A stretch of DNA of 64,000 nucleotides from Limnobaculum xujianqingii (GTDB taxonomy: Bacteria > Pseudomonadota > Gammaproteobacteria > Enterobacterales > Enterobacteriaceae). Below the pieces are notes generated by a model, which saw nothing but the letters and a program-made list of their open reading frames with translations, was not told the origin of the DNA and searched no databases. Every line of letters begins with the position of its first letter. The stretch's first letter is position 1. Location: positions 1,693,501 to 1,757,500 of the forward strand of contig NZ_JABMLK010000001.1 of NCBI RefSeq assembly GCF_013394855.1. Direction: 5' to 3'. Below, one piece after another: positions 2,630-23,579 of the stretch. The translations under genes were made by a program, and so were the position numbers.

Positions 2630-2652
2630 AGGGCCCTGCTGGGCCTTTTTTC
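2630..2652 (+). terminator. Rho-independent terminator after the AAA_13 gene
   Basis: GGCCC (2632-2636), loop TGCT, GGGCC (2641-2645), then a run of T. It separates the ATPase gene from the next gene. Confidence 0.6.
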
Positions 2653-2665
2653 ATGGGGTAGGGGA

Positions 2666-3481: not shown

Positions 3482-3520
3482 CTAGGCCGTGCCCGCAGTA
3501 TGACGTCAGTTTAAATACCA

Positions 3521-3539
3521 AGGGGCCCTGAAGGCCCCT
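3521..3539. terminator. Hairpin downstream of the membrane-protein gene
   Basis: AGGGGCC (3521-3527), loop CTGAA, GGCCCCT (3533-3539). The stem is perfect but has no T run, so termination is uncertain. The remaining sequence up to 3683 shows nothing else. Confidence 0.4.
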
Positions 3540-3683
3540 GAATAAACGGGCATTTTCGTGACAAGCAATGAGGTTTGAAAGCGTCGTTCGCGACGATTGC
3601 TATCGAGCCATGACAGTAGGAAATGCACCACCCCAACAACCGCCAGAACTGAATTGGATTGCACAATCCACAGAGTTCCAGGT

Positions 3684-4064
3684 TCAGCTCTCACGCTTTC
3701 GAGCATAAACGACAGCGCTCATTTTTTCCCGAATACCGGCTTGCAACTCACGAAACTCGATCATCAACCGCTCCACCTCGACCGAGCTTGCCCCCTGGCC
3801 ATTTTTCTCCGCAAGCCACAGCTTCAACAAGCCCGCGACACGTCCCAAGTCGCCATTAATCTTGCCTAGATCAGCCACTGCTTTCAGGTCGACAACTGAG
3901 CGGATTGGATGGTTTAGGGCTGCCGCCCGAAGTAAAGCCGATAGGGAAAGCCCAGCGTTCCGGGCGCGCCCCTCTATCTCACCTTCTTCAACAGCATTGA
4001 CGCGGAACCGAAGTGTACGGTCGCGATTCAATGTTTCCCCTTTGGTTTCGCTTTGTCTTGGCAT
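3684..4064 (-). CDS. traJ: TraJ-like oriT-binding relaxosome protein
   Basis: 126 residues. The central segment (about 66-85), with INGDLGR and LLKLWL, matches what I know of TraJ of IncP plasmid RP4, which binds beside nic and recruits the TraI relaxase. The N-terminal third has the ribbon-helix-helix-like pattern LRFRV...SLSALLRAAAL. The gene reads away from the oriT-like site at 4156-4194, as traJ does in RP4. In RP4 traI follows traJ at once; here no relaxase gene follows, only about 200 bases and then an unrelated convergent gene. A relaxase would therefore have to come from elsewhere in the element or from a helper. Confidence 0.7.
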   Translation of the reverse strand: MPRQSETKGETLNRDRTLRFRVNAVEEGEIEGRARNAGLSLSALLRAAALNHPIRSVVDLKAVADLGKINGDLGRVAGLLKLWLAEKNGQGASSVEVERLMIEFRELQAGIREKMSAVVYARKRES

Positions 4065-4155
4065 GGTTTCTCCGTTGCTAGATCGCGGCAGCGATTGTGG
4101 CCTCGCAGAGCAAGATACGTTGAGCCACAGGCGAATAAGTGGCGGTGGTTGGAGT

Positions 4156-4200
4156 TACGCGGCGAAGCCGTGTAGCTACAAACACATATCTTGCCGTCTG
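4156..4200. other. Candidate IncP-type origin of transfer (oriT)
   Basis: An imperfect inverted repeat TACGCGGC (4156-4163) / GCCGTGTA (4167-4174), one mismatch, is followed 12 bases later by TATCTTGC (4187-4194), which fits the P-type nic core YATCYTG|Y with the nick expected between 4193 and 4194. RP4 has the same layout: a TraJ-binding inverted repeat, about a dozen bases, then TATCCTG|C. It lies directly upstream of the TraJ-like gene. Assignment rests on motif and position only. Confidence 0.5.
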
Positions 4201-4251
4201 CCTGAGTGCAATTCAAAGAAATTTAGTGCTAATAGCCGTTTCGGTAAAGTC

Positions 4252-4337
4252 AGTTGCCTTAAATTTCCTTGAGTTGCGTTAATTCTCCCTAAGTTGCCTA
4301 TAGTTGCGTTATTTAGGTAAGGAATTGCCTAAAATTG
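4252..4337. repeat. Helically phased AGTTGC/AATTGC repeats
   Basis: AGTTGC begins at 4252, 4272, 4292 and 4302, followed by AATTGC at 4323 and 4332. Spacings are 20, 20, 10, 21 and 9, close to whole turns of B-DNA. They lie between the oriT-like site and the small mobilisation genes, in a 477-base stretch without a gene. Likely a binding array for a regulatory or accessory protein. Confidence 0.45.
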
Positions 4338-4541
4338 CTTTGAACTGACCCAACCGACTAAATCTAAACGAATGGATAAAACAGGGCGGAGAAAGTACAT
4401 GAGTGCCGGCCAACTTGCCGTCGCCACGCTCAGCTCGTAGCGATACAGATCCTGATATGGTTAACAACTCCAGCGGTCGCTAGAATCTCCGCTACCCACA
4501 ATAGATCAAGGCCGATATGGCACCAAAAAGGAGCATGAAAA

Positions 4542-4751
4542 ATGGCTAGAAAAACCCTTTCTGAGCGTCGAGCTGATGCCTATTCTGAATTAGATATGGT
4601 TAAGGCAAAGCTTGCAAAACTAGACAATGAGGCAGCAGAAAGAATTGCGAGAATTGCAATAAAATCAGGATTAGTTAATCTTGATCTTGCGGACGATCAC
4701 ATCCGGGAAGAATTCGACAGAATCGTGGAAAGGATAAGCAAGAGGAATTGA
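4542..4751 (+). CDS. Small TraD/MobC-like mobilisation protein
   Basis: 69 residues, highly charged: N-terminal ARKTLSERR, a short coiled-coil-like stretch (about 12-35), then IAIKSGLVNLDLADDHIREEF. That second half resembles small plasmid TraD/MobC-type accessory proteins ("...KSGL.dl...dd.l...f"). AAAAGGAGCATGAAAA lies upstream of the ATG and gives a good ribosome-binding site. Its position next to the oriT-like site agrees with a relaxosome role. Family assignment is tentative because the protein is so short. Confidence 0.5.
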   Translation: MARKTLSERRADAYSELDMVKAKLAKLDNEAAERIARIAIKSGLVNLDLADDHIREEFDRIVERISKRN

Positions 4752-4753
4752 TT

Positions 4754-4978
4754 ATGAAGACAGCCCACCGCATCAGCGCTTTGGCCACTCAACTCAATGA
4801 ACTGCAAGCCTGCCTCGGTCGAGCCAGCGGGCAATCTGGTAAGCGTATTGTGGAGGCCCAGCGCATTGCGGCCGAGCTAGCTTCTTCACTCGAAGAGTGG
4901 CACCTTGAGACGCTGCACATCCCTGAAACTGAGCGTTGCCTCTACCGCACTCATAATCCTTATTACGCAGCCCACTGA
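4754..4978 (+). CDS. Small hypothetical protein downstream of the TraD/MobC-like gene
   Basis: 74 residues from the ATG at 4754, which has GAGGA about eight bases upstream; the upstream TTG at 4748 overlaps the previous stop and is less likely. Mostly helical, with no recognised family. Two bases separate it from the preceding gene, so the two are probably co-transcribed. A terminator follows at 4997. Confidence 0.5.
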   Translation: MKTAHRISALATQLNELQACLGRASGQSGKRIVEAQRIAAELASSLEEWHLETLHIPETERCLYRTHNPYYAAH

Positions 4979-4996
4979 CGCCGCGCACCAACTTAT

Positions 4997-5023
4997 AAAA
5001 AGCTCACTTCGGTGGGCTTTTTT
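4997..5023 (+). terminator. Rho-independent terminator after the mobilisation genes
   Basis: AAGCTCAC, TTCG tetraloop, GTGGGCTT (one G-T pair), then TTTT. The following 220 bases up to the trb genes hold their promoter region; no clear elements were identified. Confidence 0.7.
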
Positions 5024-5246
5024 CGTCCGCAAAACGCATCAAACCGGACAGCCGATTCTTCTTCCTCATGAAAGAAACACCCTAGACAAACCAGAGAGTT
5101 GGCATCATTTAAAGGGTTGATCAACGGACAGTTTCCGGACGCAACTTATTGAAATCTATGCGGATAGACTATTATCCGCATATTCAAAACAACGCCATAT
5201 CGGAGAATAATCAAACCTCAAGTTACTACAAAATGAGGTATTCGGT

Positions 5247-6041
5247 ATGGAAATAGAATCGCGAAAAACTTCAGTTTATGTCGCTCGGACATTTGGCAGA
5301 GGCGCGGCGCTAGCTGTGGCAATGGCAACCACAAGCCTTGGTGTAATTCTCTATATGACACCTGCCCCGGCTTACGCCATCTACTGCTCTAACTGCTCGA
5401 CGTTCTATCAACAGATGTTCGAGTACGCTGAGCAGGTCAACACGGCGCTGAGCACCGCCGAACAATTGCAAACGCAAATTCAGCAGTACCAAAACATGGT
5501 CACGCAGGGCACGGGCTTGCCCGATTCGATGTTCGGCAGCATCGCGTCTGACTTGAAAAGCGTGGCCAACATCTACAACCGCTCGCAGGCCTTGGGCCGC
5601 CAAATCCAGAACATGGATTCGCAATTCAACACGGTTTTTCCCGGCTTCGAGTACTACCTGAATCAAGCAGCTAACTCGGCAGAGGCCCCGGCGAAAGATC
5701 GCTATCAAAAGTGGTCACAACAGGGCCGCGACAACGTGAAAACAGCGATGGAAGCGACGAACCTCAATACCAGCACCTTCGAGTCCGAGAACGCTCAGCT
5801 AGACCGCATGGTGGCTCGTTCGCAGTCGGCCATTGGTCGGATGCAGGCGATTCAGGCGAGCAATGAAATTGCCTCGCAGAACGTGCAGCAACTGCAAAAG
5901 CTGCGCGACCTACTGGCCACGCAAATCAACATGCAGGGCAATTACATGGCTCAGCAAGGCGACCGGAAGGCTGCCAGCGAAGCCGCCGAACAGCAGTTTG
6001 AAGCGCGCAAAAACACACGTGGCGGCGTGAAGGAATACTGA
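5247..6041 (+). CDS. trbJ: P-type conjugative transfer protein TrbJ (VirB5-like)
   Basis: 264 residues. A long signal peptide (hydrophobic about 20-44, APAYA just before the mature start) is followed by a CSNCS cysteine pair and a long helical, Gln/Asn-rich coiled-coil region. That is the plan of TrbJ, the VirB5-like minor component of the IncP mating-pair apparatus thought to act at the pilus tip. It is directly followed by a trbK-like gene and trbL, the RP4 order. The last residues (FEARKNTRGGVKEY) are nearly identical to the end of the next protein, which is unusual. None of trbB-I is found in the window. Confidence 0.85.
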   Translation: MEIESRKTSVYVARTFGRGAALAVAMATTSLGVILYMTPAPAYAIYCSNCSTFYQQMFEYAEQVNTALSTAEQLQTQIQQYQNMVTQGTGLPDSMFGSIASDLKSVANIYNRSQALGRQIQNMDSQFNTVFPGFEYYLNQAANSAEAPAKDRYQKWSQQGRDNVKTAMEATNLNTSTFESENAQLDRMVARSQSAIGRMQAIQASNEIASQNVQQLQKLRDLLATQINMQGNYMAQQGDRKAASEAAEQQFEARKNTRGGVKEY

Positions 6042-6043
6042 GA

Positions 6044-6232
6044 ATGACTATTTCGAAATGGATCATCGCATTGATGTGCGCCGGATCCGCACTGGCCGGT
6101 TACATGGTTACCGTGGTGGTTCAAAGCAATAGCGAATGTACTGCGATGGCTGAGCAACAACGTCACCAGCGTGACGCTGATGCGTCGTTTGAGGCGCGCC
6201 CGAACACTCGCGGCGGCGTGAAGGGGTACTAG
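6044..6232 (+). CDS. trbK: TrbK-like small exclusion protein
   Basis: 62 residues. An N-terminal hydrophobic segment (about 5-26) is followed by a short hydrophilic part. It lies between trbJ (two bases) and trbL (two bases), where RP4 has trbK, the lipoprotein for entry exclusion. No lipobox followed by cysteine is obvious at the expected place (a cysteine occurs at residue 12 inside the hydrophobic stretch), so identity rests mainly on position. The tail FEARPNTRGGVKGY repeats the tail of TrbJ. Confidence 0.6.
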   Translation: MTISKWIIALMCAGSALAGYMVTVVVQSNSECTAMAEQQRHQRDADASFEARPNTRGGVKGY

Positions 6233-6234
6233 CT

Positions 6235-7779
6235 ATGGATCGTCGTCTATTATTGTTCCTCGCCTTGGCTGGTGCGTTCGTGGCCGGAAATGCTATGGCC
6301 GCGACCGACCTTTCCCATGCTGACACATCGGTTCAGGGCCTACTCGATCTAGTTTTGCAACAGTCGCACCAGTGGTCAGCGAAGCTGTATAATTATGCCA
6401 TCAGACTGTTCTGGCTGCTGGCCTCGATCCAGTTCATCTGGACGTTCATGCCTCTGGTCATGAAGCAAGCCGATTTCGGCGAGATTGTCGGCGAGCTGCT
6501 GCGCTTCGTGCTGGTGATCGGTTTCTTCCTTGCAGTCATGAAGTACTCGGTGGAATGGTCGACGGCCATTGTCGATAGCTTCCGCGATGCGGCGGCATCG
6601 GCGAGCGGCCTCGGGCGTGCATTAGAACCCGGCGATATGCTGGCAGTTGCGCTGGATTTTGGCCGCACCATGGTGGTGGGCATATCAGTGTTTTCTCCAG
6701 CGAAGGGACTTCTGATCGCTGTATGCGCAATCCTTGTGTTGGCATGTTTCGCCTTCATCGCCGCATTCATGTTTGTCACGCTAGTAGAGTCTTACGTCAT
6801 CATCAATGCTTCCGTGCTGTTCTTCGGCTTTGGCGGTTCGCAATGGACGCGGGATTTTGCAATTGCGCCGATGCGCTTCACCGTTGCGATTGGTGCCAAG
6901 CTATTTGTACTGACCCTGATTGTCGGCCTGATCGTACAGTCGGCAAAACAATGGTTGGCCGCCTATACCAATGATGAAGCATCATTGATGACGATGGTCG
7001 GTTTGGCCTTGGTGTGCTGCTACCTCACGAAGACAATTCCTGACCTGATCGGTGGCATGATTAGCGGCACGTCGATGGGCGGCGGACTGGCGGGGGCGAT
7101 TAACTCCAGCTTTGCCGGTGCCAGCTCCGCAGGTGGTGCCGCGTCGTCTATGGGTGCAGCGGCGTCCTCCGGCGTGGGTGCCAGCACCGGCGGCGGAGCG
7201 GCCCAGGGCGCCAGTTCCGCAGGCGCGAAGGTAGGCGGCAGCTCCGCCAATTCTGCCGGGCAGGCGTCGGGCGCTCCGTCCTCGCCAAGCAGCGGCTTAC
7301 AAAAGGCCGCCAAGCAGGCCGGAAAGGCCGCGCAGGGGAACGACGATAAAGACCAGCAGACGACAACAATAGGGGGAGTTGTCAGCTCCGGCAGCGCACT
7401 TTCCCAAGCGGCCAACGGTGGCGCAAAGATGCTCGGCGTGATGGCTTCGATGGCAGTGCCAGGTATGGAAAATGCGCACGTATTGTCTCTTGGTGCAGGA
7501 TCTCCGCCACCTGTTCCCGACGATACCAACTTGACCACTCCAGCCAATGAAGCAGAGTCGGCCGCGGAAGCTTCACAAGCAGAGCCTAACGTCATCCGTC
7601 CGGCCTCGGAAACTAACTCTACTCCTGGACGCCTCGCCTCACTCAAGGTGCCGGGCATGACTCGAACAATGATCAATCGGAGAAATAACCATGATGGACG
7701 TTCTGATATTCGCTGGATTCGTGGTATTAGCCTCGACGTTCGCAGTCGGCATGTGGGCGCTGGGCAAGTGGCTGCGTAG
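6235..7779 (+). CDS. trbL: P-type conjugative transfer protein TrbL (VirB6-like)
   Basis: 514 residues. A signal-like N-terminus ends at NAMA (about 19-22), then several membrane helices lie between residues 55 and 275 (for example about 58-76, 87-102, 160-185, 185-200, 222-240, 251-265). A long Gly/Ser/Ala-rich cytoplasmic tail follows from about 285. This is the layout of TrbL, the polytopic inner-membrane VirB6-type component of IncP transfer systems. The final 30 or so residues are Arg-rich and overlap a small membrane ORF (7691-7822) in another frame, so the native end may have been changed by a frameshift or fusion. Confidence 0.85.
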   Translation: MDRRLLLFLALAGAFVAGNAMAATDLSHADTSVQGLLDLVLQQSHQWSAKLYNYAIRLFWLLASIQFIWTFMPLVMKQADFGEIVGELLRFVLVIGFFLAVMKYSVEWSTAIVDSFRDAAASASGLGRALEPGDMLAVALDFGRTMVVGISVFSPAKGLLIAVCAILVLACFAFIAAFMFVTLVESYVIINASVLFFGFGGSQWTRDFAIAPMRFTVAIGAKLFVLTLIVGLIVQSAKQWLAAYTNDEASLMTMVGLALVCCYLTKTIPDLIGGMISGTSMGGGLAGAINSSFAGASSAGGAASSMGAAASSGVGASTGGGAAQGASSAGAKVGGSSANSAGQASGAPSSPSSGLQKAAKQAGKAAQGNDDKDQQTTTIGGVVSSGSALSQAANGGAKMLGVMASMAVPGMENAHVLSLGAGSPPPVPDDTNLTTPANEAESAAEASQAEPNVIRPASETNSTPGRLASLKVPGMTRTMINRRNNHDGRSDIRWIRGISLDVRSRHVGAGQVAA

Positions 7780-8202: not shown

Positions 8203-8233
8203 GGCTTCGCCACCAGTAATACGCACGGACCTG
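8203..8233. repeat. 31-bp direct repeat, copy 1
   Basis: GGCTTCGCCA..AGTAATACGCACGGAC.TG; matches 9392-9422 at 28 of 31 positions. The two copies flank the unknown gene 8398-9147. Confidence 0.6.
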
Positions 8234-9391: not shown

Positions 9392-9422
9392 GGCTTCGCC
9401 ATTAGTAATACGCACGGACTTG
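9392..9422. repeat. 31-bp direct repeat, copy 2
   Basis: Second copy of the repeat at 8203-8233, with three mismatches. A GGGGATC/GATCCCC inverted repeat lies about 50 bases upstream of this copy. Confidence 0.6.
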
Positions 9423-12022: not shown

Positions 12023-13243
12023 TCATTTTTTTCCGGCATTGCTTGGACGTGGTCGTTTGAGCGTCCACTCGTCAATCATATCCGCCCAATCCTGCAACAT
12101 CGCCCGACGCTGATCACGGTATTCAGCTTTGTTGTAGACGGCCCTTACACCCTTCTGCTCGTGCGCAAGGCACTTCTCAATCCAGTCTGAGTTGTAACCC
12201 GCCTCATGCAGCAGCGTGCTCGCTGTGCGCCTCAAATCATGCGGTCCGAACTTGCTCAACGGCTGCCCTTCTTTCTGCGCAAGCCGGTAGGTTAGCGTCA
12301 GCACCTGATTGATCGTCGCGGTGCTCATTGGCAAATCGGAATCGTACCGAGAGGGAAAGACGTAATCCGAACCACCGGCAAACGTCTTCAGAGCAATGAA
12401 AAAATCCAGTGCCTGCTGAGATAAGAACACCAAATGGGGATTGCGCCGCTTCATCCGCTCTTTCGGAATGGTCCACAGGGCTTCGCTGAAATTGATTTCG
12501 TTCCAGGTAGCGTTGGTCAATTCACTTTTACGAACCATGGTCAGCAACAGCAGCTTAGCGGCGACTCTCACGGATGAGGCAGTGCCGATGCGGTCCAGGT
12601 ACTGATACATCAACGCGATTTCGTCAGGCCCTAAAGCACGGTCACGTGGCTCGAATTTAGCGATGCTTGCAGGACGTACCAAATCAGCCGGATTATCGAC
12701 CTTCTGGCCTCGCTCTATCGCCCATCGGAACACCTGCATCACAATCTCGCGGGAGTGCACGGCCGTGGCTGGAGCTCCACGCTCCACAATTGCATCAGTC
12801 AGCGTTCGCAGATCCTCATGATTGATTTCCACCAGTTTCTGATTACCGAAGTGCGGCTTTAGCTCGCGCTCGTAAACCGATCGGCGCATGTCACGCGTCG
12901 AGTCAGCCATCTGATATCCACGCAGCCATTTCTCAGCCCACGCATCAAACGTCTCTGCCCCTTTGGTGCGTGCCTTGGCACGGGCTTTCTCTTTGGCAGG
13001 GGACTTACCCGCCGAAACCATCTTTTTAGCCTCGCCCAGGCGCTCTCTGGCTTCCGCAAGTGTGATGCCACCCACGCCATAACGACCGAACGTGATGGTC
13101 TCCTGACGGCCATTGATTGAGTAGTTGTAACGAAATGAGATGGAACCGGCAGCGGTGACGGCCACGTACAGCCCGTCGCGGTCGTTCACCTTGTAGAGTT
13201 TTTCTTGCGGTTTGAGGTTACGCAGCTTGGTATCGGTCAGCAT
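12023..13243 (-). CDS. int: P4-type tyrosine recombinase (integrase of element 1)
   Basis: 406 residues from the ATG at 13243, where the conserved start MLTDTKLRNLKPQ begins; in-frame ATGs at 13261 and 13312 would extend it. An N-terminal DUF4102-like arm-binding domain (about 1-95), a core-binding region and a C-terminal catalytic domain can be seen. Catalytic residues: Arg in MVRKSEL, HDLRR, LAHEQ and the nucleophilic Tyr in VYNKAEY. The gene lies 310 bases from the repeat at 13553 with its start toward it, the usual layout for integrases acting at their own att site. It is clearly related to the second integrase at 20578. Confidence 0.95.
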   Translation of the reverse strand: MLTDTKLRNLKPQEKLYKVNDRDGLYVAVTAAGSISFRYNYSINGRQETITFGRYGVGGITLAEARERLGEAKKMVSAGKSPAKEKARAKARTKGAETFDAWAEKWLRGYQMADSTRDMRRSVYERELKPHFGNQKLVEINHEDLRTLTDAIVERGAPATAVHSREIVMQVFRWAIERGQKVDNPADLVRPASIAKFEPRDRALGPDEIALMYQYLDRIGTASSVRVAAKLLLLTMVRKSELTNATWNEINFSEALWTIPKERMKRRNPHLVFLSQQALDFFIALKTFAGGSDYVFPSRYDSDLPMSTATINQVLTLTYRLAQKEGQPLSKFGPHDLRRTASTLLHEAGYNSDWIEKCLAHEQKGVRAVYNKAEYRDQRRAMLQDWADMIDEWTLKRPRPSNAGKK

Positions 13244-13269
13244 GGCAGTTACGGATTCCATGGAAAAAA

Positions 13270-13420
13270 TACCATGCTCAGAAAAGCACTCATGCACCAC
13301 GATAAAACCCAATTAAACCGGGCTGATGATGAGACTTGATACCATGCCCTTCCCTACAAGGGCGACATGGTATCGAGCACCGAACATGGCATTTGGCTCA
13401 GTCAATACCCCGTACCATGC
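13270..13420. repeat. TACCATGC repeats between integrase 1 and its att site
   Basis: TACCATGC at 13270-13277, 13340-13347 and 13413-13420, and an inverted copy within ATGGTATC (13367-13374) that forms an 8-bp inverted repeat with GATACCAT (13338-13345). Candidate arm-type integrase or excisionase/AlpA sites. Confidence 0.5.
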
Positions 13421-13552: not shown

Positions 13553-13568
13553 ATTCCCACTCAATCGT
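13553..13568. repeat. Attachment-site repeat between elements 1 and 2
   Basis: ATTCCCACTCAATCGT, identical to 22004-22019 in the last codons of guaA. It bounds element 2 on the left and element 1 on the right. Confidence 0.9.
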
Positions 13569-13605
13569 TGAAATGGTATTTAATGCATTGATTTATAATT
13601 GATTT

Positions 13606-13643
13606 ATACCGTTCAAAAATATTAATACCGTCAAATCTACCGT
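13606..13643. promoter_or_regulatory. TACCGT direct repeats at the left end of element 2
   Basis: ATACCGT at 13606-13612 and 13625-13631, TACCGT at 13638-13643. The same heptamer forms two dyads at the integrase end (21811-21888). Likely arm-type binding sites of integrase 2. Confidence 0.55.
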
Positions 13644-13705
13644 CGCAGGAAAAAACTACTTCGCGATAACGATTCTCTCCCGATTTTACCCCTACTGAAT
13701 GATGT

Positions 13706-13996
13706 TTAGTGAGTTGCCTGAGCAACCAGCTTAACCCCAAGAGCAGCACAGACACGGTTAATGGTGTCAAATCGCGGATGAGCATCAGGGCGCAATGCTT
13801 TGTAGAGCGCTTCACGGGAAATCCCGGATGCGTTGGCAATGTCGCTCATTCCACGGGCACGGGCAATTGTACCGAGAGCCTGGGCCAGTGCAGCAGGGTC
13901 ATTTTCTTCCATTACCACGGTCAGGTATTCGGCAAGTGCCTCGGGGCTATCCAGGTATTCCGTAACATCGAATTCGGGCAAGTTGGAAATTTTCAT
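13706..13996 (-). CDS. HigA-type antitoxin
   Basis: 96 residues with an XRE-type helix-turn-helix in the second half (IARARGMSDIANASGISREALYKAL, then FDTINRVCAALG). The N-terminal part (MKISNLPEFDVTEYLDSPEALAEYL) is typical of the "putative addiction module antidote" family. It starts three bases after the toxin stop, giving the toxin-first order usual for HigBA. It should neutralise the upstream toxin and, with it, repress the pair from the dyad at 14306. It probably stabilises the island. Confidence 0.9.
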   Translation of the reverse strand: MKISNLPEFDVTEYLDSPEALAEYLTVVMEENDPAALAQALGTIARARGMSDIANASGISREALYKALRPDAHPRFDTINRVCAALGVKLVAQATH

Positions 13997-13999
13997 GGT

Positions 14000-14305
14000 T
14001 CAGTCCTTAAGGGTTGCAGCAAGGGCAATGGCTTCAGCGATGTCTTTCGACTGCGAGGATTTATCTCCACCGCCCAGCATCACAATCAATACGGTTCCGC
14101 GCTGGATGTAGTACATACGCCATCCAGCACCAAAGTGTTCACGCATTTCCCATACTCCTTCACCGACAGGCTTACAGTCGCCAAGGTTCCCGAACTGGGC
14201 CTTTTCGATGCGTCGCGCAAGGCGACGCTTGGTCATACCATCCTTGATACTGGACAACCATTCGGTGAATTTGTGAGTGGTCTTGATCGTATACATGTTA
14301 TTCAT
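14000..14305 (-). CDS. HigB/RelE-type toxin
   Basis: 101 residues if started at the ATG at 14305 (MNNMYTIKTT); an ATG three codons later is possible. The pattern FTEWLSSIKDGMTKRRLARRIEKAQFGNLGD, then GVWEMREHFGAGWRMYY, is that of the RelE/HigB superfamily toxins of TIGR02683 type, which cleave mRNA at the ribosome. It is paired with the antitoxin just downstream. A perfect 8-bp inverted repeat abuts the start codon. Confidence 0.9.
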   Translation of the reverse strand: MNNMYTIKTTHKFTEWLSSIKDGMTKRRLARRIEKAQFGNLGDCKPVGEGVWEMREHFGAGWRMYYIQRGTVLIVMLGGGDKSSQSKDIAEAIALAATLKD

Positions 14306-14323
14306 TGTAATCGAACGATTACA
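14306..14323. promoter_or_regulatory. Probable operator of the toxin-antitoxin pair
   Basis: TGTAATCG-AA-CGATTACA, a perfect 8-bp inverted repeat directly in front of the toxin start. HigA antitoxins bind such dyads to repress their own operon. Confidence 0.6.
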
Positions 14324-14391
14324 AAATATCAAAAAAATTGTATTTGGGGAGTTTAAAGTGATGACTCAACGCCGGGTCGTGGAGCGTTAAG

Positions 14392-15258
14392 TTATCGTCC
14401 CAGATAAACCGCTGTAATAGCTAAACGCTCATGGCCTAATTCACGGCTGATGATCTGACGTGCGGCCCGATCCTGAACGCGCTGTTCTCGGGTCAATGCC
14501 TTGGCGCTTGGTCCTCCGGCAGCAGGAGCCTGCCAGCCGGTCAAGGCTTCATAACGCTGTTGTGCATAGTGGTGTCGTAACCCGTGCATATGGCTTAATC
14601 CCGCCCCCTTGCACTGTCCATCATAAGTGTGGCGCTGCTGGATGTAGGTTTTTTGCGCAGGGATTAGTGAGCCTGCCCCGACCAACTGGTGCGCTTCATC
14701 GAGTACGGCTCGTTGCTGCGGCGTTGTAAGCGGTACAACCCGCTCCCGTCCGCCCTTCGTCCAGGAGCCTTTCAGCAAAATGAAATCACCCTGATCTGCA
14801 TAGCCAGGACGAAACTTGATTGCTTCTTCACGACGCAGCCCGAAAGCCTGTTGCAGGGCCAGACTCATGCGTACACAGGGATCATTCACCCTGTCCAGGG
14901 CATCACTACCTAACACCTGCGCTTTGCTCTCTTGAGTGACAAAACGCCGCTCAGGAATACCGAGCCGGGTATTGTCTGCCGGAATAATACCGGCCTTGCC
15001 CACTTTCTCAGCCCACCAGCGCACATGTGCCAGACGGTTTTTTAGCGTGCCAGCGGATAAGCCCTCGGTCTGCCAGCGTTGCAACAAGACCTCGATATGC
15101 TTGCCCTTGAGCGAAGTTGCACGCATCTGGCGGAAACCGACGTCACGTAACTGGCGGCTCATCAACGTCAGCGATCGCAGCCGGTCGGCCTGTGTTGCAT
15201 GGCTGCCGTCCCGGTTGCGCTGGCAAAGCTGGCGCAGTGTGTAAGTTAAATCATCCAT
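14392..15258 (-). CDS. Second tyrosine recombinase-like protein of element 2
   Basis: 288 residues from the ATG at 15258, which has AGGAGG five bases upstream; the longer frame to 15561 lacks such support. N-terminal SAM-like core-binding region (about 1-105) and a catalytic domain with GLRREE, HGLRHHY, SRELGHE and a final Tyr in VYLGR at the very C-terminus. All five usual catalytic positions look present. It differs from the P4-type integrases: it lacks the DUF4102 arm domain and resembles the "integrase domain-containing protein" found in enterobacterial islands. Its role is unknown; transposition of a nested unit or dimer resolution are possible. Confidence 0.75.
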   Translation of the reverse strand: MDDLTYTLRQLCQRNRDGSHATQADRLRSLTLMSRQLRDVGFRQMRATSLKGKHIEVLLQRWQTEGLSAGTLKNRLAHVRWWAEKVGKAGIIPADNTRLGIPERRFVTQESKAQVLGSDALDRVNDPCVRMSLALQQAFGLRREEAIKFRPGYADQGDFILLKGSWTKGGRERVVPLTTPQQRAVLDEAHQLVGAGSLIPAQKTYIQQRHTYDGQCKGAGLSHMHGLRHHYAQQRYEALTGWQAPAAGGPSAKALTREQRVQDRAARQIISRELGHERLAITAVYLGR

Positions 15259-15816
15259 CAAAGCCTCCTGCGGCTCTCGTGTGTGTGCGTGTAGGGTCAA
15301 AACTAAGTTTTCATCGGTAAGTGTTGTTGCCAACTCGCCAAAGCGAGATCCCCGAAGGGCTAGGGCCAGGTGCTTAGTCACCTGTTGCCTGCATTGAGGC
15401 ATCCGCCGTACTCCCTGCGGGGAGATCGGGCGGGGTTGCTGCGTGAAAAAGAGCGCACGGCGCTGTGGAGAACCTCCTGTGTGTGAGAAAAGTGATAGAA
15501 AATGAAGACGAACGGTGTCAGGCATTGCGCACTGAACGATTGCCGGTGAGGGTTGAAGCACCTAGGGTACGGAGAGAAGAAGGGGACAGAATAATCAGGC
15601 TCCCCCTATGGGTAAGGGGTCATGCGCATGACGAGCCGGGCGCATAAGAAGGCAGCATCGACAATTTTTTGCCGACCTGACGCTGACTGCCCTGCGTCAG
15701 TGCCGGTGAATGAAGCCCACCGAAAAGGCTATTGCACGGCCAGTCTGCCAGGGCATCATCACGCAAACAATAAACAATAGGATACGGCGCTAACCCATAT
15801 TCTTGCGTAGGTGGTG

Positions 15817-15847
15817 GGGGCTGTCACTGCGGGGCAGTGACAGCCCC
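15817..15847. repeat. Perfect 13-bp hairpin
   Basis: GGGGCTGTCACTG (15817-15829), loop CGGGG, CAGTGACAGCCCC (15835-15847). First of three long stem-loops in the gene-free stretch 15259-16302. Confidence 0.8.
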
Positions 15848-15897
15848 TTTGCGGCAAATGGCTCTGTGTTAGCCCCCCCAAACCCCGCTCGCCGCGA

Positions 15898-15942
15898 GGC
15901 AATTACCGGAGGATGGTTAAACACCCATCCCCCGGCATTGCC
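15898..15942. repeat. 19-bp imperfect hairpin
   Basis: 15898-15916 pairs with 15924-15942 around a 7-base loop (TTAAACA); 16 of 19 positions match. Second stem-loop in this gene-free stretch. Confidence 0.7.
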
Positions 15943-16113
15943 GCCAGCGTCAGGCGTTCCAGTCGCGTCAAGGGTCTGCTTCGCCAGGGTGCTCACCCGG
16001 TCTCTTCGAGCTGCGGTTTCCCCCCCTGCCCTTGACCCGACTTCTACGCCTCACACTTCACAGCACCACATAAAAGCGCCATTGATGCCGCATCGTGCCG
16101 CGATATCATCAGA

Positions 16114-16156
16114 CCTCCCCAGGAAGATAACGGTTGCCGTTGTCTTCCTGGGGAGG
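16114..16156. repeat. 20-bp hairpin
   Basis: 16114-16133 pairs with 16137-16156 with one mismatch around the loop TTG (CCTCCCCAGGAAGA ... TCTTCCTGGGGAGG). Third stem-loop. It precedes the HigA-like gene by about 150 bases. Confidence 0.75.
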
Positions 16157-16302
16157 CACCAAGCGCAGCGCGGTAGTGAACTACCCGCCAGCCTTAAGGG
16201 TTGACGTAGCCGTCTTAATCGCGGATTGAACAGCATATCGCGAGGTGATACCTTACGGTTTTATGTTTTGTTTATCCGTTCTGTCCATCGCTGGAGGTCT
16301 GT

Positions 16303-16614
16303 ATGTCAATGTACGATCCCCCTCATCCAGGCGAAGCAGTACGCTTGGATGTATTGCCTGAAATTGGATTGAGCATTACCGCACTGGCGGAGCATCTGGG
16401 CTATTCCCGTAGCCATTTTTCCGCAGTGCTTAATGGTCGGGCGGCTATCAGTGCAGATCTGGCCCATCGTCTGGAACTGGCTGGCCTGGGTCGAGCACGT
16501 CAGTATCTGGCTGAGCAGGTTGCGCATGATCTATGGCAGACAAAACAGCGCACACATCCACCCATCAGGCGATTGTCTATACGAACTTTCAATGTCGCCG
16601 GTAGTAATTCGTAG
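16303..16614 (+). CDS. Orphan HigA-like XRE regulator
   Basis: 103 residues with HPGEAVRLDVLPEIGLSITALAEHLGYSRSHFSAVLNGRAAIS, the HigA/VapI-type helix-turn-helix, and GGAGG six bases before the ATG. HigA genes are normally preceded by higB; here the upstream 1 kb contains no toxin gene. It ends 21 bases before the large STAND gene, so it may regulate that gene instead of acting as an antitoxin. The last 20 residues after DLWQTKQR look non-conserved. Confidence 0.75.
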   Translation: MSMYDPPHPGEAVRLDVLPEIGLSITALAEHLGYSRSHFSAVLNGRAAISADLAHRLELAGLGRARQYLAEQVAHDLWQTKQRTHPPIRRLSIRTFNVAGSNS

Positions 16615-16635
16615 CAAAGGGAATTGTGAAATCTA

Positions 16636-19600
16636 ATGACTTTTTTTGAGCTTGAACCTCCTGATATTTCAAATCTTAGTGATGCTGATCTAAGAGAAAT
16701 GGTCGCTAGATTGTGTGAAGCTGAATTGATTCGCCAAGAAATTCAGCCATCTTGTGTTTTGTGGGGTGGTGCGCAGGAGGCTGCTGACGGCGGCCTCGAT
16801 ATTCGAGTTACCGATGCAATTCCTTTATCAAATCCAGGCTTTGTAAGCCGTGAGAATACTGGTTTTCAAGTAAAGAAAAACGGTATGAGTAAGGCTGCCT
16901 GCAAAAAGGAAATGCTTGATAAAGGAAAGTTAAAAACTGTTATAGGTGATTTGATAGATAAAAAAGGTGCTTATGTAATTGTTAGTGGCAAAGATGATTG
17001 TTCGGACAAAATGCTATCTGAACGTCTTCTTGGTATGAAATCTGCCGTCGAAGGCTTATCAAATAGTGAAGATATTCTCCTTGATTTTTATGGTAGAGAT
17101 CGGCTTAGCGCATGGTTGAGACAATTTCCTGGTGTTACCCTGTGGGTTCGCTCTAGGCTGGGAAAGCCTCTATCAGGATGGCTACCTTTTGGCAGATGGA
17201 CTGCTACTCCACCTGATAAAGAAGATGAGTTTTTACTGGACGAGCACCCTTGCGTAATCGATATAAATTCTCACCAAAAAAGCCCTATAGCTATTGCTGA
17301 TGGAATTATGCTTGTGCGTGAAAGATTACGTGGAGATGGTTCGGTGGTCCGACTAACTGGTCTATCAGGAGTTGGAAAAACACGATTTGCTCAAGCACTT
17401 TTTGAACAAGGTGTATGCGAAAAATCTCTACCGGAAGCAAATGTAATATATGCAGATCTTGGTGATGATTTATACCCAACGGCATCTGAACTTGTTTCCT
17501 ACTTAATAGCTAACGATTTTTCAAGCTATGTAGTTCTGGATAATTGCCCACCAGATATTCATAGGAAGCTGCAAAACCAAGTATCGTCAAATCAAGCTAA
17601 GTTGAGCCTTCTTACCATCGAATATGACATCTCGGATGATCGACCAGAAGAAACAGAAGTAATACATATTGAACCATCAAGTGAGGAAACCGTTTCTAAA
17701 CTCATTCAAAAAAGATTTTCTTCTCTTGGGCGGGTCAATGCAGACAAAGTTGCAGAATTTTCCGGTGGGAATGCGCGTATTGCTATTGCATTGGCAAGCC
17801 GAGTGGGGGCAGACGAGACTTTAGCAAATTTTTCTGATGAAGATTTATTTCAGAGGTTGTTCAATCAAAGAAAAGGGAAAACTGAAAGTTTACTTGAAAG
17901 TGCAGAGGTTTTATCTTTGGTTTACTCGTTTAATGTCTCTCCAAAGGCGTTCAACGATGAATTGAGTGTTCTCTCTAAAATTGGCGGATTGGATCGTCAA
18001 AAGTTAAATCGTAATCATGCCGAGTTGTTACGGAGGCAATTATCGCAGCAACGAGGAAATTGGCGGGCAGTTCTGCCACATGCTTTAGCTAATCGTCTCG
18101 CACGAAGAGCCCTTCAGAATATCCACCCTGACCAAATTAATACTGAGTTGTTAAAAGTAGATAATTTACGATTATTCAGGTCATGTGCCCATCGACTAGG
18201 TTATCTACATGATTTTGAACCCGCGCGGTATCTTGCTCGTTCGTGGATGAAAACCGGTGGACCATTTCATAATATTTCATTGTGTGGTGCTGAGTTACTT
18301 ACAGCTCTAAGCTATATCGCACCAGTATTTCCAGATGCAGTATTAACCGCTATAGAGGATGCATCAGAAACCCCAGAATTTTGCTCTCGAAACAATCAAA
18401 ACTTCTCTGTTTTTATAAGACTACTTAGAAAAATCGCATATGAAGACCAGTACTTTGACCGTGCTGCTGAGCTAATTCTTCGCTTTGCGGAGACAGAAAA
18501 ATCTGGTGAGAATAACAATAGCATCGCTAGGCAATTGGCGAGTCTTTTTTCATTGTATCTCTCTGGTACACAGGCTAAACCATCGCGAAGGTATTCATTT
18601 GTGAGTAGAATACTAAATTCCGGTAACTTAAGGCAGCTTGAGATTGCACGGGACATTTTTTGTTCTGCGTTTGAGGCTTCTCACTGGACCTCATTTGGAG
18701 GCTTTGATTTTGGCGCCCGTAGTAGGGACTATGGATGGGAGCCAAAGACAAATAAAGAGGAATTAGACTGGTACGTAGGTTTTATTAAGCTGTTAGTACC
18801 ACTTTTAGATTCGAACAATGAGTTACGTAGTGAGTGGGCAAAAGAGATACTGGCAAACCACTTTGTTAGCTTATGGAGCTATGCAGGTTGCTTTGACATC
18901 CTTGAAAAGGTCGTGCGCAAATACGGTACTGGCGGTAAGTGGCTAAATATGTGGATGGCCATTAAGCGGACAATCCATTACAACGGAGATAAACATACCC
19001 CTAAAATATTTACAAGGCTTGAAACGCTTGAGCGTTTAGCTGCGCCGGCTGACCCCTATTCCGAAATTGAGGCATATGCTCTAACTAACACATGGGATCA
19101 TCTAGAGGTTAGAGACGGGGACTACACAAAAAGCTCAGAAGAAATTTATCAAAAGATAGAAAAATTAGGTGAACTTGCGATATCTGAATATAAATACCTT
19201 GAAAGATTGGCACCAAGACTATGGGACAAGCACATTGATTCGCCTTGGGCATTTGGTAAAGGGTTAGCTAAAGGCTCATTAGATCAAAAATCAGCATTTG
19301 ATTCTCTTGTCTGTCTGATGCAAAAGCAAAAGCTAGAAGTAGTTCAACCAGGCCTCTTTTGCGGCTTTATTGCTGGCGTTCATATATGTAATCCTAGCTT
19401 ATCTCGAAAACTCCAAGAGTCTGTATTAGATGTACCAGAGCTAAAACCATATTTTGTAAATATTCTGACTGCAACTCCGATAGCCCCTTGGGGTACAAAA
19501 AAGCTTATTGAACTAGCCAGGGCTGGTGAACTCGAGCCACGGAGGTTTCTACAGATAAGTTCTGGCCGGATGCATGAGTCTATTACTGATGATGATTTAT

Positions 19601-20460
19601 CAAAATTGCTTTCCGCACTTAACAATTTAGACAATGGAATATTTTCAACCATTGAAATATTGAGCATGCGGTTCTTTACTGAAAATGGGAGCAAGTACAG
19701 TCCTAGCGCTGAATTACGTCATGTTGGAAGACAAGCTATTTTTAAAATGCTTTCATTGCACAGAGATGAAATTAGAGGTCGGCAGTCTCATGGAATGAAC
19801 CTCGTTATTAAAGAGTGTTTATCAGAACCAGCAACGGAGAATGAAATACGCGAAATAATTAACTTACTTTGCGGCGGAATTGAGACGTATCGCTTATATG
19901 GTTTCGAACTGGAAAATATTATAGCTCATCTAGTAGAAAATTATCCAGAATACATTTTAGATAGAGTATTTCTAGATAGTGAGAGTAGTGAGCAACTCAT
20001 GCACTTTCTTTTCAAAGATAGGGCGAACCGAAGTAGCTCACCATTAAACTTATCACCTATCGAGCGTGTGCTAAATTGGTGTAATGGAAATCAAGATAGA
20101 ATTCAGAAAGTAACTGGTGCTGTATCGGCATATACGTCTTTAGACAAAGAATTACAGCCGCTAGAAAATCCAAAGCAAATAGCTCTCAGCCAACATGCCA
20201 TATTACTTTTAAATGCTGCAGAAAACAAAGCCGCTATAGTTGAGACTATTTTCTCCAGATCTTTTCCTAGCAGCTGGTCAGAATCGCTTGCCGATATTCT
20301 TGAGGCTCGGTCGCAGGCATTCTCAGAACTACTGAATCATGACTCTCCTGAGGTGCGAGAGATTGCAAAGGCCAAACTTTCTCTTTTAAATAGGTCAATT
20401 AGAGAAAATAGAGAGCGTGAAACGGAGGAGTACAACCGGCGGGAGCAAAGATTTGAGTAA
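16636..20460 (+). CDS. Mrr-like nuclease / STAND NTPase fusion, candidate anti-phage protein
   Basis: 1274 residues. Residues about 20-170 look like an Mrr-type PD-(D/E)xK endonuclease: GGLDI (Asp55) and GFQVKK (Gln78, Lys80). A STAND-like P-loop ATPase follows: Walker A GLSGVGKT (241-248), Walker B YVVLDN (297-302) and FSGGNARIAIALA (374-386), the counterpart of the GxP motif. The remaining roughly 880 residues are helical and may form TPR/HEAT-like repeats for ligand sensing. Nuclease-STAND-repeat is the plan of Avs-type anti-phage proteins, which recognise a phage protein and then cut DNA. The gene is AT-rich compared with the rest of the island, suggesting separate acquisition. Exact family not recognised; the defence role is inferred. 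Confidence 0.7.
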   Translation: MTFFELEPPDISNLSDADLREMVARLCEAELIRQEIQPSCVLWGGAQEAADGGLDIRVTDAIPLSNPGFVSRENTGFQVKKNGMSKAACKKEMLDKGKLKTVIGDLIDKKGAYVIVSGKDDCSDKMLSERLLGMKSAVEGLSNSEDILLDFYGRDRLSAWLRQFPGVTLWVRSRLGKPLSGWLPFGRWTATPPDKEDEFLLDEHPCVIDINSHQKSPIAIADGIMLVRERLRGDGSVVRLTGLSGVGKTRFAQALFEQGVCEKSLPEANVIYADLGDDLYPTASELVSYLIANDFSSYVVLDNCPPDIHRKLQNQVSSNQAKLSLLTIEYDISDDRPEETEVIHIEPSSEETVSKLIQKRFSSLGRVNADKVAEFSGGNARIAIALASRVGADETLANFSDEDLFQRLFNQRKGKTESLLESAEVLSLVYSFNVSPKAFNDELSVLSKIGGLDRQKLNRNHAELLRRQLSQQRGNWRAVLPHALANRLARRALQNIHPDQINTELLKVDNLRLFRSCAHRLGYLHDFEPARYLARSWMKTGGPFHNISLCGAELLTALSYIAPVFPDAVLTAIEDASETPEFCSRNNQNFSVFIRLLRKIAYEDQYFDRAAELILRFAETEKSGENNNSIARQLASLFSLYLSGTQAKPSRRYSFVSRILNSGNLRQLEIARDIFCSAFEASHWTSFGGFDFGARSRDYGWEPKTNKEELDWYVGFIKLLVPLLDSNNELRSEWAKEILANHFVSLWSYAGCFDILEKVVRKYGTGGKWLNMWMAIKRTIHYNGDKHTPKIFTRLETLERLAAPADPYSEIEAYALTNTWDHLEVRDGDYTKSSEEIYQKIEKLGELAISEYKYLERLAPRLWDKHIDSPWAFGKGLAKGSLDQKSAFDSLVCLMQKQKLEVVQPGLFCGFIAGVHICNPSLSRKLQESVLDVPELKPYFVNILTATPIAPWGTKKLIELARAGELEPRRFLQISSGRMHESITDDDLSKLLSALNNLDNGIFSTIEILSMRFFTENGSKYSPSAELRHVGRQAIFKMLSLHRDEIRGRQSHGMNLVIKECLSEPATENEIREIINLLCGGIETYRLYGFELENIIAHLVENYPEYILDRVFLDSESSEQLMHFLFKDRANRSSSPLNLSPIERVLNWCNGNQDRIQKVTGAVSAYTSLDKELQPLENPKQIALSQHAILLLNAAENKAAIVETIFSRSFPSSWSESLADILEARSQAFSELLNHDSPEVREIAKAKLSLLNRSIRENRERETEEYNRREQRFE

Positions 20461-20577
20461 TCATTCAGTATGGGTTTTGGCTTCGTCTAATCTAAGTTCT
20501 AAAAACCTCTACTTCCCGCCGCTGCAGCCGGAGCATACCGGGCGCAGCGGCCACTTCCATTTGGCATAATACAAATT

Positions 20578-21789
20578 CTACACCTTATACTCTTCAATCC
20601 ACCGATCCACCATATCGGCCCAATCCTGCAAAAGCTGCTTTCTTTGCTCGGCGTATTCAGCCTTGTTATACACCGCCCTCACCCCTCGCTGTTCATGAGC
20701 CAAGGCTTTTTCAATCCAATCCGAGTTATAACCGGCTTCATGCAAGTGCGTGGATGCTGTGCGCCGCATATCATGGATAGTGAAATCAGCCAGCGGCAAG
20801 CCCTGTTTCTGAGCTAGCACAATCGCATGGTTCGCCGCACGGTTAAGGGAACTCAACGCTATTGTTCCGTGCTGAGATTGCCCGAAACTCGGCATAACAA
20901 ACGGAGAACCATCAGCCAGAATATGCAGTTGCATAAGCAGATCCAGGGCTTGGTGGGACAGATAAACGACATGCGGACGCCCTGCTCCATGGCGGCTGGC
21001 TTTCATTCTTTCGGCTGGAATCACCCATTCTGCCGTAACAAAATCTATTTCATCCCAAGTAGCGTTGACAATGGAATTCTTTCTGATCATGGTCAGCATG
21101 ACTATCTTGAGCGCCACCTTCAGCGCATGGGACGTTTGAGCATTTTTCAGCGTATTAAAGAACAGGCCAATTTCTCTTTTGGATAAGGCCCTGTCTCTGG
21201 GCTTGAACGTTGCAATGGTCGAAGGGGCCACATGTTCCGCTGGATTTTCGCATTTAACGCCCCTGGCTTTCGCGTAGGTAAATACGTTGCCCACAATATC
21301 GCGTGTCTTGACGGCAGACGCTGAAGCTCCCCTATCCTTGATCTTCTCACAGTGGTTACGCAGCATATCCGGGGTGATTTCACTCAGCAGCTTTTTGCTG
21401 AATTTGGGTCTGACATCGCGCTTGATGATGCCCTCTACGATATTGCGCGTACTATCCTTGTAGTCTGCGTCCTGAAACCAGCGTTCAAGCCAGTCACCGA
21501 AATAGGTCGATTTTGTCTGCTCTTTCTGCCGTTGCTTTTCAGCCGCAGGAGATAGCCCTTGAGCGATGAGCTTCTTTGCCTCGCGTAATCTTTCCCGTGC
21601 ATCTGATAGCGTTATCTGATCATACCTACCGAGTGCGAGGGTTTCACGCCTGCCATTTATGCTGTAGTCGTAACGAAACGACACGGTTCCAGAAGGTAAC
21701 ACGGCAACATACAGCCCATCACGATCAACCACTTTGTAAAGCCGATCTTTTGCTTTCAGCACTTTTAATTTGCTATCCGTCAGCATCAT
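20578..21789 (-). CDS. int: P4-type tyrosine recombinase (integrase of element 2)
   Basis: 403 residues starting MMLTDSKLKVLKAKDRLYKV with GAGGAGGCG just before the ATG. N-terminal DUF4102 arm-binding domain; catalytic residues Arg in MIRKNS, HDMRR, ALAHEQ and Tyr in VYNKAEY. Related along its length to the integrase at 12023. Next to the guaA att copy and preceded by two TACCGT dyads, so it is expected to integrate the island at guaA. Confidence 0.95.
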   Translation of the reverse strand: MMLTDSKLKVLKAKDRLYKVVDRDGLYVAVLPSGTVSFRYDYSINGRRETLALGRYDQITLSDARERLREAKKLIAQGLSPAAEKQRQKEQTKSTYFGDWLERWFQDADYKDSTRNIVEGIIKRDVRPKFSKKLLSEITPDMLRNHCEKIKDRGASASAVKTRDIVGNVFTYAKARGVKCENPAEHVAPSTIATFKPRDRALSKREIGLFFNTLKNAQTSHALKVALKIVMLTMIRKNSIVNATWDEIDFVTAEWVIPAERMKASRHGAGRPHVVYLSHQALDLLMQLHILADGSPFVMPSFGQSQHGTIALSSLNRAANHAIVLAQKQGLPLADFTIHDMRRTASTHLHEAGYNSDWIEKALAHEQRGVRAVYNKAEYAEQRKQLLQDWADMVDRWIEEYKV

Positions 21790-21810
21790 CGCCTCCTCAC
21801 GCTTGTGTGA

Positions 21811-21888
21811 AATACCGTCAGCCTAAACGGTATTTTTTCCAATCTACCACAAATAATGAAAAGCGATACCGTTAAAAATCACGGTATC
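21811..21888. promoter_or_regulatory. Two identical-geometry dyads upstream of integrase 2
   Basis: AATACCGT-N8-ACGGTATT (21811-21834) and GATACCGT-N8-ACGGTATC (21865-21888). Both have an 8-base spacer and their centres are 54 bases apart, about five helical turns. Probably arm sites or an autoregulatory operator of the integrase. Confidence 0.6.
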
Positions 21889-21931
21889 AGAGAGCGGATT
21901 TCAGTGGATTTTGATGGCTTATAAAAAACAA

Positions 21932-21966
21932 AAAAGCCAGTCAATCATTTGATTTAACTGGCTTTT
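21932..21966. terminator. Bidirectional terminator between integrase 2 and guaA
   Basis: AAAAGCCAGT (21932-21941) pairs with ACTGGCTTTT (21957-21966). Because it lies inside the repeat boundary, guaA now uses a terminator carried by the island. Confidence 0.75.
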
Positions 21967-22001
21967 AAAGACATTAACAGTCTTCAGTGGAAGCTAAAAA
22001 C

Positions 22002-23579
22002 TTATTCCCACTCAATCGTCGCCGGTGGTTTACCCGAAATATCATAAACCACACGAGAAATACCATTCACTTCATTGATGATGCGGTTAGAAACCCGACC
22101 AAGGAAGTCATACGGTAAGTGCGCCCAGTGAGCGGTCATAAAGTCGATGGTTTCTACCGCACGCAGCGAAACAACCCAGTCATACTTACGACCATCACCC
22201 ATTACACCAACAGAGCGAACTGGTAAGAACACGGTGAATGCCTGACTGACTTTATTATACAAATCAGCTTTATGCAGCTCTTCAATAAAGATGGCATCAG
22301 CACGACGCAGCAAATCACAATATTCTTTCTTCACTTCGCCCAGAACACGAACCCCTAAGCCTGGGCCCGGGAATGGATGGCGGTACAGCATGTCGTACGG
22401 TAAGCCCAGCTCTAAGCCAATCTTACGCACTTCATCTTTAAACAGCTCTTTCAGCGGCTCAACCAGCCCCATCTTCATCTCTTCCGGTAAACCGCCCACA
22501 TTGTGGTGAGACTTAATCACATGCGCTTTACCCGTCGCAGAAGCGGCAGATTCAATCACGTCAGGATAGATGGTGCCTTGTGCCAGCCACTTCACATTAG
22601 TTTGTTTTGATGCTTCTTCATCAAACACTTCCACAAACACGCGGCCAATGACTTTACGCTTCGCTTCCGGATCGTTAATACCGGCCAGCGCGCTCAGGAA
22701 ACGCTGTTCCGCAGGCACATGGACAATGTTCAGGCCAAAGCGATCGCCAAACATATCCATCACTTGCTCTGCTTCATTCAGACGCAGCAGTCCGTTATCC
22801 ACAAATACGCAGGTCAAACGCTTGCCAATGGCACGATGCAACAGCATAGCGGTTACTGATGAGTCAACGCCACCGGACAGGCCGAGGATAACCTCATCTT
22901 CACCCACTTGCTGGCGAATGCGCTCGATAGCATCATCAATAATAGATGCAGGAGTCCACAGGCCTTCACAGCCACAGATATCCAGCACAAAACGCTTTAA
23001 CAGGCTTAGTCCCTGATTGGTGTGAGTCACCTCTGGATGGAACTGCAGACCGTAAAAATGTTTTTCTTCATTTGCCATAATGGCAAACGGACAGGTATCA
23101 GTGCTGGCAACAGCGGTAAAACCTGCAGGAATAGCGGTAACTTTATCGCCATGGCTCATCCACACGTCTAACTGTGGTTTGCCATCTGCTGACAGCGTGT
23201 CGCGGATATCACGGACAAATTCGCTATCATTAATGATATCAACCTTGGCATAACCAAATTCACGCTCGTCAGAGCCCTGAACTTTGCCACCCAACTGCAT
23301 TGCCATGGTTTGCATACCATAACAGATACCCAGAACAGGAATACCGGCGTTAAATACATATTCCGGTGCGCGTGGGCTTCCGGCTTCAGTAGTACTTTCC
23401 GGACTGCCGGACAGGATAATGCCGGTTGGATTGAATTCACGAATTTGCGCTTCGCTGACGTCCCATGCCCAGAGTTCGCAATAAACGCCGATTTCACGGA
23501 CGCGACGGGCAATTAACTGAGTGTACTGAGAACCAAAATCCAGAATCAGAATGCGTTGCTGATGAATGTTTTTTGACAT
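22002..23579 (-). CDS. guaA: GMP synthase (glutamine-hydrolysing)
   Basis: 525 residues, the usual enterobacterial length. Converts XMP to GMP with glutamine and ATP. The N-terminal class I amidotransferase domain shows GICYGMQ (nucleophilic Cys), the ATP-pyrophosphatase domain shows LSGGVDSS, and the C-terminal dimerisation domain ends in TIEWE. The last codons are the integration site of the island and are restored intact by it. 158 bases downstream of guaB, likely one guaBA operon. Confidence 0.98.
22004..22019. repeat. Attachment-site repeat at the 3' end of guaA
   Basis: ATTCCCACTCAATCGT, covering the codons for the last residues and part of the stop of guaA; identical to 13553-13568. 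Confidence 0.9.

Follow-up and report, generated by a model that had tools for sequence, protein, structure and literature searches.

The open reading frame and its family

The DNA considered here is a 64,000-nucleotide stretch of the Limnobaculum xujianqingii genome (assembly GCF_013394855.1, contig NZ_JABMLK010000001.1, positions 1,693,501 to 1,757,500), which as a whole we call the window. On its plus strand, at 16636-20460, lies an intact open reading frame (ORF) of 1274 codons running from ATG to stop, exactly where a preliminary description of this DNA had placed it; a search of the bacterium's own 4.76-Mb genome finds this one copy. The product, a candidate anti-phage protein of 1274 amino acids, appears to consist of an Mrr-like nuclease, a STAND nucleoside triphosphatase (NTPase) and a C-terminal putative sensor. 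Every motif quoted in the preliminary description is present in it: GGLDI at residues 52-56, FQVKK at 77-81, GLSGVGKT at 242-249, LDNC at 301-304 and GGNARIA at 377-383; these are not chance occurrences, because relatives across several phyla retain them. Comparison with the three close relatives tested gives a ratio of non-synonymous to synonymous substitution (dN/dS) of ~0.13-0.15: the gene is intact and under purifying selection.

Neither Pfam nor NCBIfam yields a match above cut-off for the window protein. The PADLOC profile PD-Lambda-4_A aligns with all of it, residues 1-1274 on positions 1-1283, at 1022 bits (E 0); the reference protein, WP_063100146.1 of Escherichia coli 3036, scores 2525 bits on the same profile. 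Compared directly, the two proteins are 34% identical and align end to end (664 bits, residues 1-1274 on 1-1283): they are colinear over their full, similar lengths and share motifs and a C-terminal EQRFE, but the window protein belongs to a separate clade of 28 rows, has other neighbours and is encoded without the PD-Lambda-4_B gene. Judged by these alignments, the window protein is a member of the catalogued PD-Lambda-4_A family of defence proteins. It can thus hardly be called undescribed, as it had been: PADLOC covers it from end to end, and a 2022 paper (PMC9122126) already mentions STAND proteins that begin with an Mrr_cat nuclease. No DNA match to the window gene was found among E. coli genomes, and no match to its product among the proteins of phage records.

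The name PD-Lambda-4 suggests an origin in the PD systems described by Vassallo et al. (2022, PMC9519451); "lambda-4" does not occur in the main text of that paper, and the link to it comes from the PADLOC label. By the naming rule given there, PD-lambda-4 would have emerged from the selection with lambda-vir. A full-text search brought up two other papers that name it, a review with a table listing it under P-loop NTPase and a Citrobacter genome survey that gives the bare name; the passages naming PD-lambda-4 in these two give no mechanism.

Scanning 84,980 species genomes brought up 434 stretches encoding a relative, of which the best 80 were kept, other clades being under-sampled as a result. 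Four of the 80 genome loci (L022, L034, L041 and L081) have short or broken ORFs and were left out of the alignment used below, which has 88 rows, including the window protein and one protein counted twice (L012 and L084); L022 is present in the tree. In this quick tree, of 91 rows, the window protein falls in the 28-row clade, starred there, which is sister to a 16-row clade containing the E. coli protein; Bacillota and Chloroflexota, among others, are represented in a third group, of 43 rows. Three esterase-bearing relatives, to which we return, and the distant relative L009 lie outside all three groups, on a midpoint root that serves for drawing only.

The predicted nuclease domain and its replacement by an esterase

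Residues 1-180 (16636-17175, plus strand) form a predicted nuclease domain of the Mrr/PD-(D/E)xK kind, as suggested by conservation, by profile alignment and by the alpha-beta pattern of an AlphaFold model of residues 1-640 (pLDDT 89.3). The D..D..QxK signature, made up of D51, D55, Q78 and K80, is kept at each position in 87 of the 88 rows, the exception, to judge from the alignment, being L010, where the nuclease has been replaced. Aligned by hhalign with members of Mrr_cat (23 of 26 fetched loci used, three repeats having been dropped), residues 11-114 score 74.5% (P 2.7e-5, 78 columns), with DGGLD falling on DGGID and FQVKK on the IQAKR-type (QAK) motif, whereas two other regions of the family, taken as controls, score 0.5% and 0.7%; L009 and L010 were kept out of all three alignments, that of the nuclease and those of the NTPase and C-terminal control regions. 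A plain hmmscan of the window protein against Pfam does not list Mrr_cat at E up to 1, nor does PF04471 find a match in the window's genome at E 1e-8. In the model, the succession of helices and strands over residues 16-161 is compatible with the restriction-endonuclease topology, but the rows returned by structure search mostly span residues 178-483.

The relative L010, on an Enterobacter plasmid (4404-8525), begins with a DUF676 serine esterase, above the Pfam cut-off, and matches PD-Lambda-4_A over residues 264-1359. Two further plasmid relatives, L113 from Vibrio (2206-6333) and L114 from Lelliottia (2239-6366), likewise carry an esterase instead of the nuclease. The N-terminal effector is exchanged between relatives, nuclease for DUF676 esterase. 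The esterase motif reads GHSLGG in L010 and L114 and CHSLGG in L113, and PADLOC labels the esterase part of L010 and L114 as DUF626_VIII. In another set of distant relatives (L101, L102, L104-L106 and L227) a stretch resembling a helix-turn-helix (HTH), recognized by eye with no domain search, precedes the Mrr-like nuclease.

The NTPase domain and likeness to Avs proteins

Conservation, profile alignment, the model and Foldseek all point to a STAND/NACHT-like NTPase at residues 205-400 (17248-17835, plus strand), with Walker A at 242-249, Walker B at D302, LLTxEYD at 325-331 and GNAR at 378-381. K248 is kept in all 88 rows. The DN of Walker B had been remarked on as standing in place of the more usual DD; the DN is there, but it is no oddity, being the norm in this family (N303 in 87 of 88 rows, D in one). 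At the GNA position the distant relatives L009 and L115 have GFP, which resembles the GxP motif of STAND proteins.

The NTPase region aligns with NACHT members at 96.3% (E 1.7e-9, 125 columns), with ABC transporters over 23 columns (E 3.3e-7) and with AAA members over 114 (E 7.8e-7), the P-loop contributing a good part of all three scores; the nuclease and C-terminal regions reach at most 5.4% against NACHT. These profiles were built from 26 of 30 NACHT, 25 of 25 ABC and 17 of 25 AAA loci. No Pfam STAND family exceeds its curated cut-off in the window protein, AAA_16 and others falling below it. With the model of residues 1-640 as query, the first 14 Foldseek rows are all STAND/NLR proteins, Avs3 (E 2.6e-7) and Avs4 occupying ranks 3, 5 and 6. 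Sequence searches of solved structures were of little use: the single window protein brought up a chance match only, and a profile of residues 1-640 brought up weak P-loop matches, the best at E 0.049 (MsbA), with the plant NLR Roq1 at 0.075. There is good evidence, from sequence profiles and a predicted structure, for a STAND-type NTPase at residues 205-400; and the make-up proposed in the preliminary description, an Mrr-like nuclease joined to a STAND NTPase and a long C-terminal part, is upheld by conservation, by the Mrr_cat and NACHT alignments, by the model and by Foldseek.

With Avs1-Avs4 (AVAST) the window protein shares the order of effector and NTPase and the long C-terminal part, and Foldseek finds Avs3 and Avs4; the Avs3 and Avs4 chains are longer (2028, 1541 and 1534 residues) than its 1274. 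No Avs-named profile in our copies of PADLOC and NCBIfam, whose Avs content is unverified, is listed for the window protein at E up to 1. NF041812, guessed to be an Avs accession, proved to be another family, named class_D_Cupria. A comparable make-up is described for STAND proteins with Mrr_cat from hotspots of P4 satellites (Rousset et al. 2022, PMC9122126): they too join an Mrr_cat nuclease to a STAND NTPase and a C-terminal part, but C-terminal repeats are also reported for them, and none is clear in the window protein. By analogy, we regard the window protein as Avs-like in build, and it would presumably be Avs-like in its working; we place it in no particular Avs type.

The same domains could belong to a restriction-type enzyme, in which the nuclease would see foreign or modified DNA directly and the NTPase would serve translocation or dimerisation rather than the sensing of a phage protein. 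The nuclease shares its signature and profile alignment with the type IV restriction enzyme Mrr, though in the window protein an NTPase and a long C-terminal part follow it; the AAA alignment extends over 114 columns and AAA+ machines head the VIA list; and of 11 systems that have components for DNA binding or cleavage, 7 are reported to give direct immunity (Vassallo et al., PMC9519451). NACHT, however, is a better profile match than AAA, and an NTPase and C-terminal part that can bear a serine esterase as well suit a sensor more than they do a DNA translocase. We think such an enzyme unlikely.

The C-terminal half

The NTPase is followed by a predicted helical, possibly winged-helix-like segment at residues 401-500 (17836-18135, plus strand), recognized from the secondary structure of the model and from conserved residues, of which R467, Q471, R473, L480 and P481 are invariant in all 88 rows. 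The remainder, residues 501-1274 (18136-20457, plus strand), is a putative sensor, helical as far as modelled (residue 640). It had been put at about 880 helical residues; the model, mostly helical over about 480-640, supports that part of the claim, and ends at 640. The protein finishes with FE (20452-20457), which forms the exact C-terminus in 82 of 86 relatives and stands one residue before the end in three of the other four. Its constancy in members from different phyla suggests that the tail has a role, for instance in docking or autoinhibition. Aligning segments of residues 420-1274 against one another by hhalign brings out no clear internal repeats (best P 0.0021 among many pairs).

The partner gene

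PD-lambda-4 is a two-gene system: in E. coli 3036 a PD-Lambda-4_B gene (544 bits) lies just downstream of WP_063100146.1, and the G006 locus likewise carries B directly downstream. Beside the window gene B is absent, the next gene being the integrase at 20578 on the opposite strand. By tblastn, B was found in one of the 80 best genome loci (L082), in addition to G006, and in the wider set of 96 loci only in L011/L015 (one gene) and L082; L063, L085 and L086, sisters of the E. coli protein within its clade, are without it. A distant B may escape tblastn, and 7 of 85 loci had less than 700 bp downstream. With no B beside it, the window gene does not form a two-gene PD-lambda-4 system, and its branch lacks this usual partner.

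The window gene might accordingly be half of such a system, B having been lost, so that defence is defunct or depends on a B-like protein elsewhere. The position of B directly downstream in E. coli 3036 and G006 favours this, as does the practice of Vassallo et al. (PMC9519451) of counting as homologues only those encoding all components; against it stand the intactness of the window gene, with its dN/dS of ~0.13-0.15, and the rarity of B in the loci searched, those of sisters of the E. coli protein included. On balance we consider this explanation improbable.

A proposed single-gene phage sensor

The reading that we favour, at a probability of about 0.7, is that the window protein, as a member of the PD-Lambda-4_A family, is an Avs-like sensor of phage that needs no second gene. 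At rest, the STAND NTPase (205-400, together with the segment reaching 500) would be held shut by the C-terminal half (about 500-1274); on meeting a phage product it would bind ATP and form an oligomer; the oligomer would unite the N-terminal Mrr-like nuclease domains (1-180, with D51, D55, Q78 and K80), and these would then cut DNA; and the cutting would stop the phage, perhaps along with the cell. Sensing, oligomerisation, DNA cleavage, cell death and action without a B protein are what we infer for it.

We are evenly divided over a broader proposition: that PD-Lambda-4_A is a distinct STAND sensor lineage spread over several phyla, in which a conserved core of NTPase plus sensor, nearly always FE-tailed, bears an effector that is an Mrr-like nuclease in some members and a serine esterase in others, a single gene sufficing and the B gene of E. 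coli being a late local addition. New here are the 28-row clade, apart from the E. coli clade and without PD-Lambda-4_B, and the swap of esterase for nuclease in three plasmid relatives. The family acquires a concrete, testable build of nuclease, STAND NTPase and sensor; the swap is a natural experiment separating sensor core from effector; and the window protein, at 34% identity to that of E. coli, could help to show if a single conserved feature of phages is what the family senses.

The probable guaA island

The gene lies on what is probably an 8.5-kb genomic island at guaA (13553-22019), with an exact copy of the 16-bp sequence ATTCCCACTCAATCGT at either end, one at 13553-13568 and the other at 22004-22019, where guaA has its 3' end. 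The ends are inferred from the exactness of the repeat, its position at guaA and the adjoining integrase; these also bear out the guaA island setting given in the preliminary description. Inexact repeats of this kind are not rare: in controls allowing up to 3 mismatches the 16-mer was expected 0.52 times, with two or more in 14 of 100 shuffles; an 18-mer at guaA was expected 0.03 times, with two or more in 1 of 100 shuffles. Enclosed by the repeat, besides the family gene, are the tyrosine integrase adjoining guaA (20578-21789, minus strand; Pfam Arm-DNA-bind_3 and Phage_integrase); a toxin-antitoxin pair (13709-14332, minus strand), foreseen in the preliminary description and consisting by Pfam of an HI1420-type antidote at 13709-13996 and a Gp49-like gene at 14000-14332; a third, different recombinase (Phage_int_SAM_2/Integrase_1) at 14392-15561; and an orphan HigA-type antitoxin/HTH gene (16303-16614, plus strand; TIGR02607, 70.7 bits against a cut-off of 47.7), ending 21 bp before the family ORF. 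The family gene differs in base composition from the rest of the island, as had been stated: 39-42% G+C, against about 48-58% in the part of the island on its left and 46-51% on its right.

The HigA-type gene raises the possibility that the window protein is an island regulator or conflict protein, directed for example against other plasmids or islands, that acts with this gene and is not primarily anti-phage. Its distance of 21 bp, an annotated vapBC directly upstream in L010, the HTH-like stretches that, by eye, are fused to the nuclease in distant relatives, and the island and plasmid settings of family genes would all suit such a role. HTH_3, however, is present in just 3 of 46 upstream genes, the window's included (ORFs picked mechanically), and the family label stems from a phage-selection screen; we hold this explanation to be quite improbable. 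As a general conserved partner the HigA-type gene is rejected on the same count; it may be relevant locally, given the HTH-like fusions and the vapBC of L010.

A second guaA-type integrase lies at 12023-13312, just left of the first repeat copy, 51% identical to that at 20578-21789 and on the same strand. Each of the two sits just left of one copy of the 16-bp repeat, and there may be two tandem islands at guaA. Further left, a 31-bp direct repeat of 90% identity (8203-8233 and 9392-9422) is possibly an old island end. In 5 of the 80 genome loci guaA was found in the vicinity of the family gene. One of these belongs to Pseudomonas caspiana (L031); its guaA has beside it an integrase 91% identical to the window's 12023-13312 integrase and ends in the same 16-mer, of which a weaker copy, with 3 mismatches, occurs some 130 bp past the family gene.

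Spread of the family and its neighbours

The closest relatives of the window protein among the best 80 of 434 (78-82% identity) include those of Alcanivorax, Aeromonas, Alloalcanivorax, Vreelandella and Klebsiella, a distribution that points to horizontal transfer of the gene; a Limnobaculum allomyrinae contig (L084) also carries a family gene. Samples of whole genomes show few carriers of the family: matches occur in 13 of the 369 genomes sampled from the class, several of them distant or partial, and in 8 of 398 from the phylum, the window's own genome being counted in both; among 40 genomes of relatives there are 4 matches, one by short pieces only. DNA matching part of the G006 locus is present in 145 of 5426 E. 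coli genomes, in none over 80% of the locus.

All-against-all phmmer comparison of 45 upstream and 32 downstream genes, the two of L011 and the window's HigA gene brought out no conserved neighbour of the window's clade; the upstream and downstream genes were picked mechanically, a procedure that missed the vapC of L010. The neighbours that recur are B, in L011 and L082, and genes common to the near-identical pairs L032/L040, L033/L043 and L085/L086. UvrD, ResIII, RT, JetD, SLATT and ApeA domains are among the matches listed for neighbours of some relatives, in counts that are inflated by near-identical pairs and have no background rate. In the E. coli-like clade one upstream gene (364 amino acids in L082 and L085) is common to L063, L082, L085 and L086 and might be considered a candidate for a partner; L011 has a different upstream gene, which carries DUF5677.

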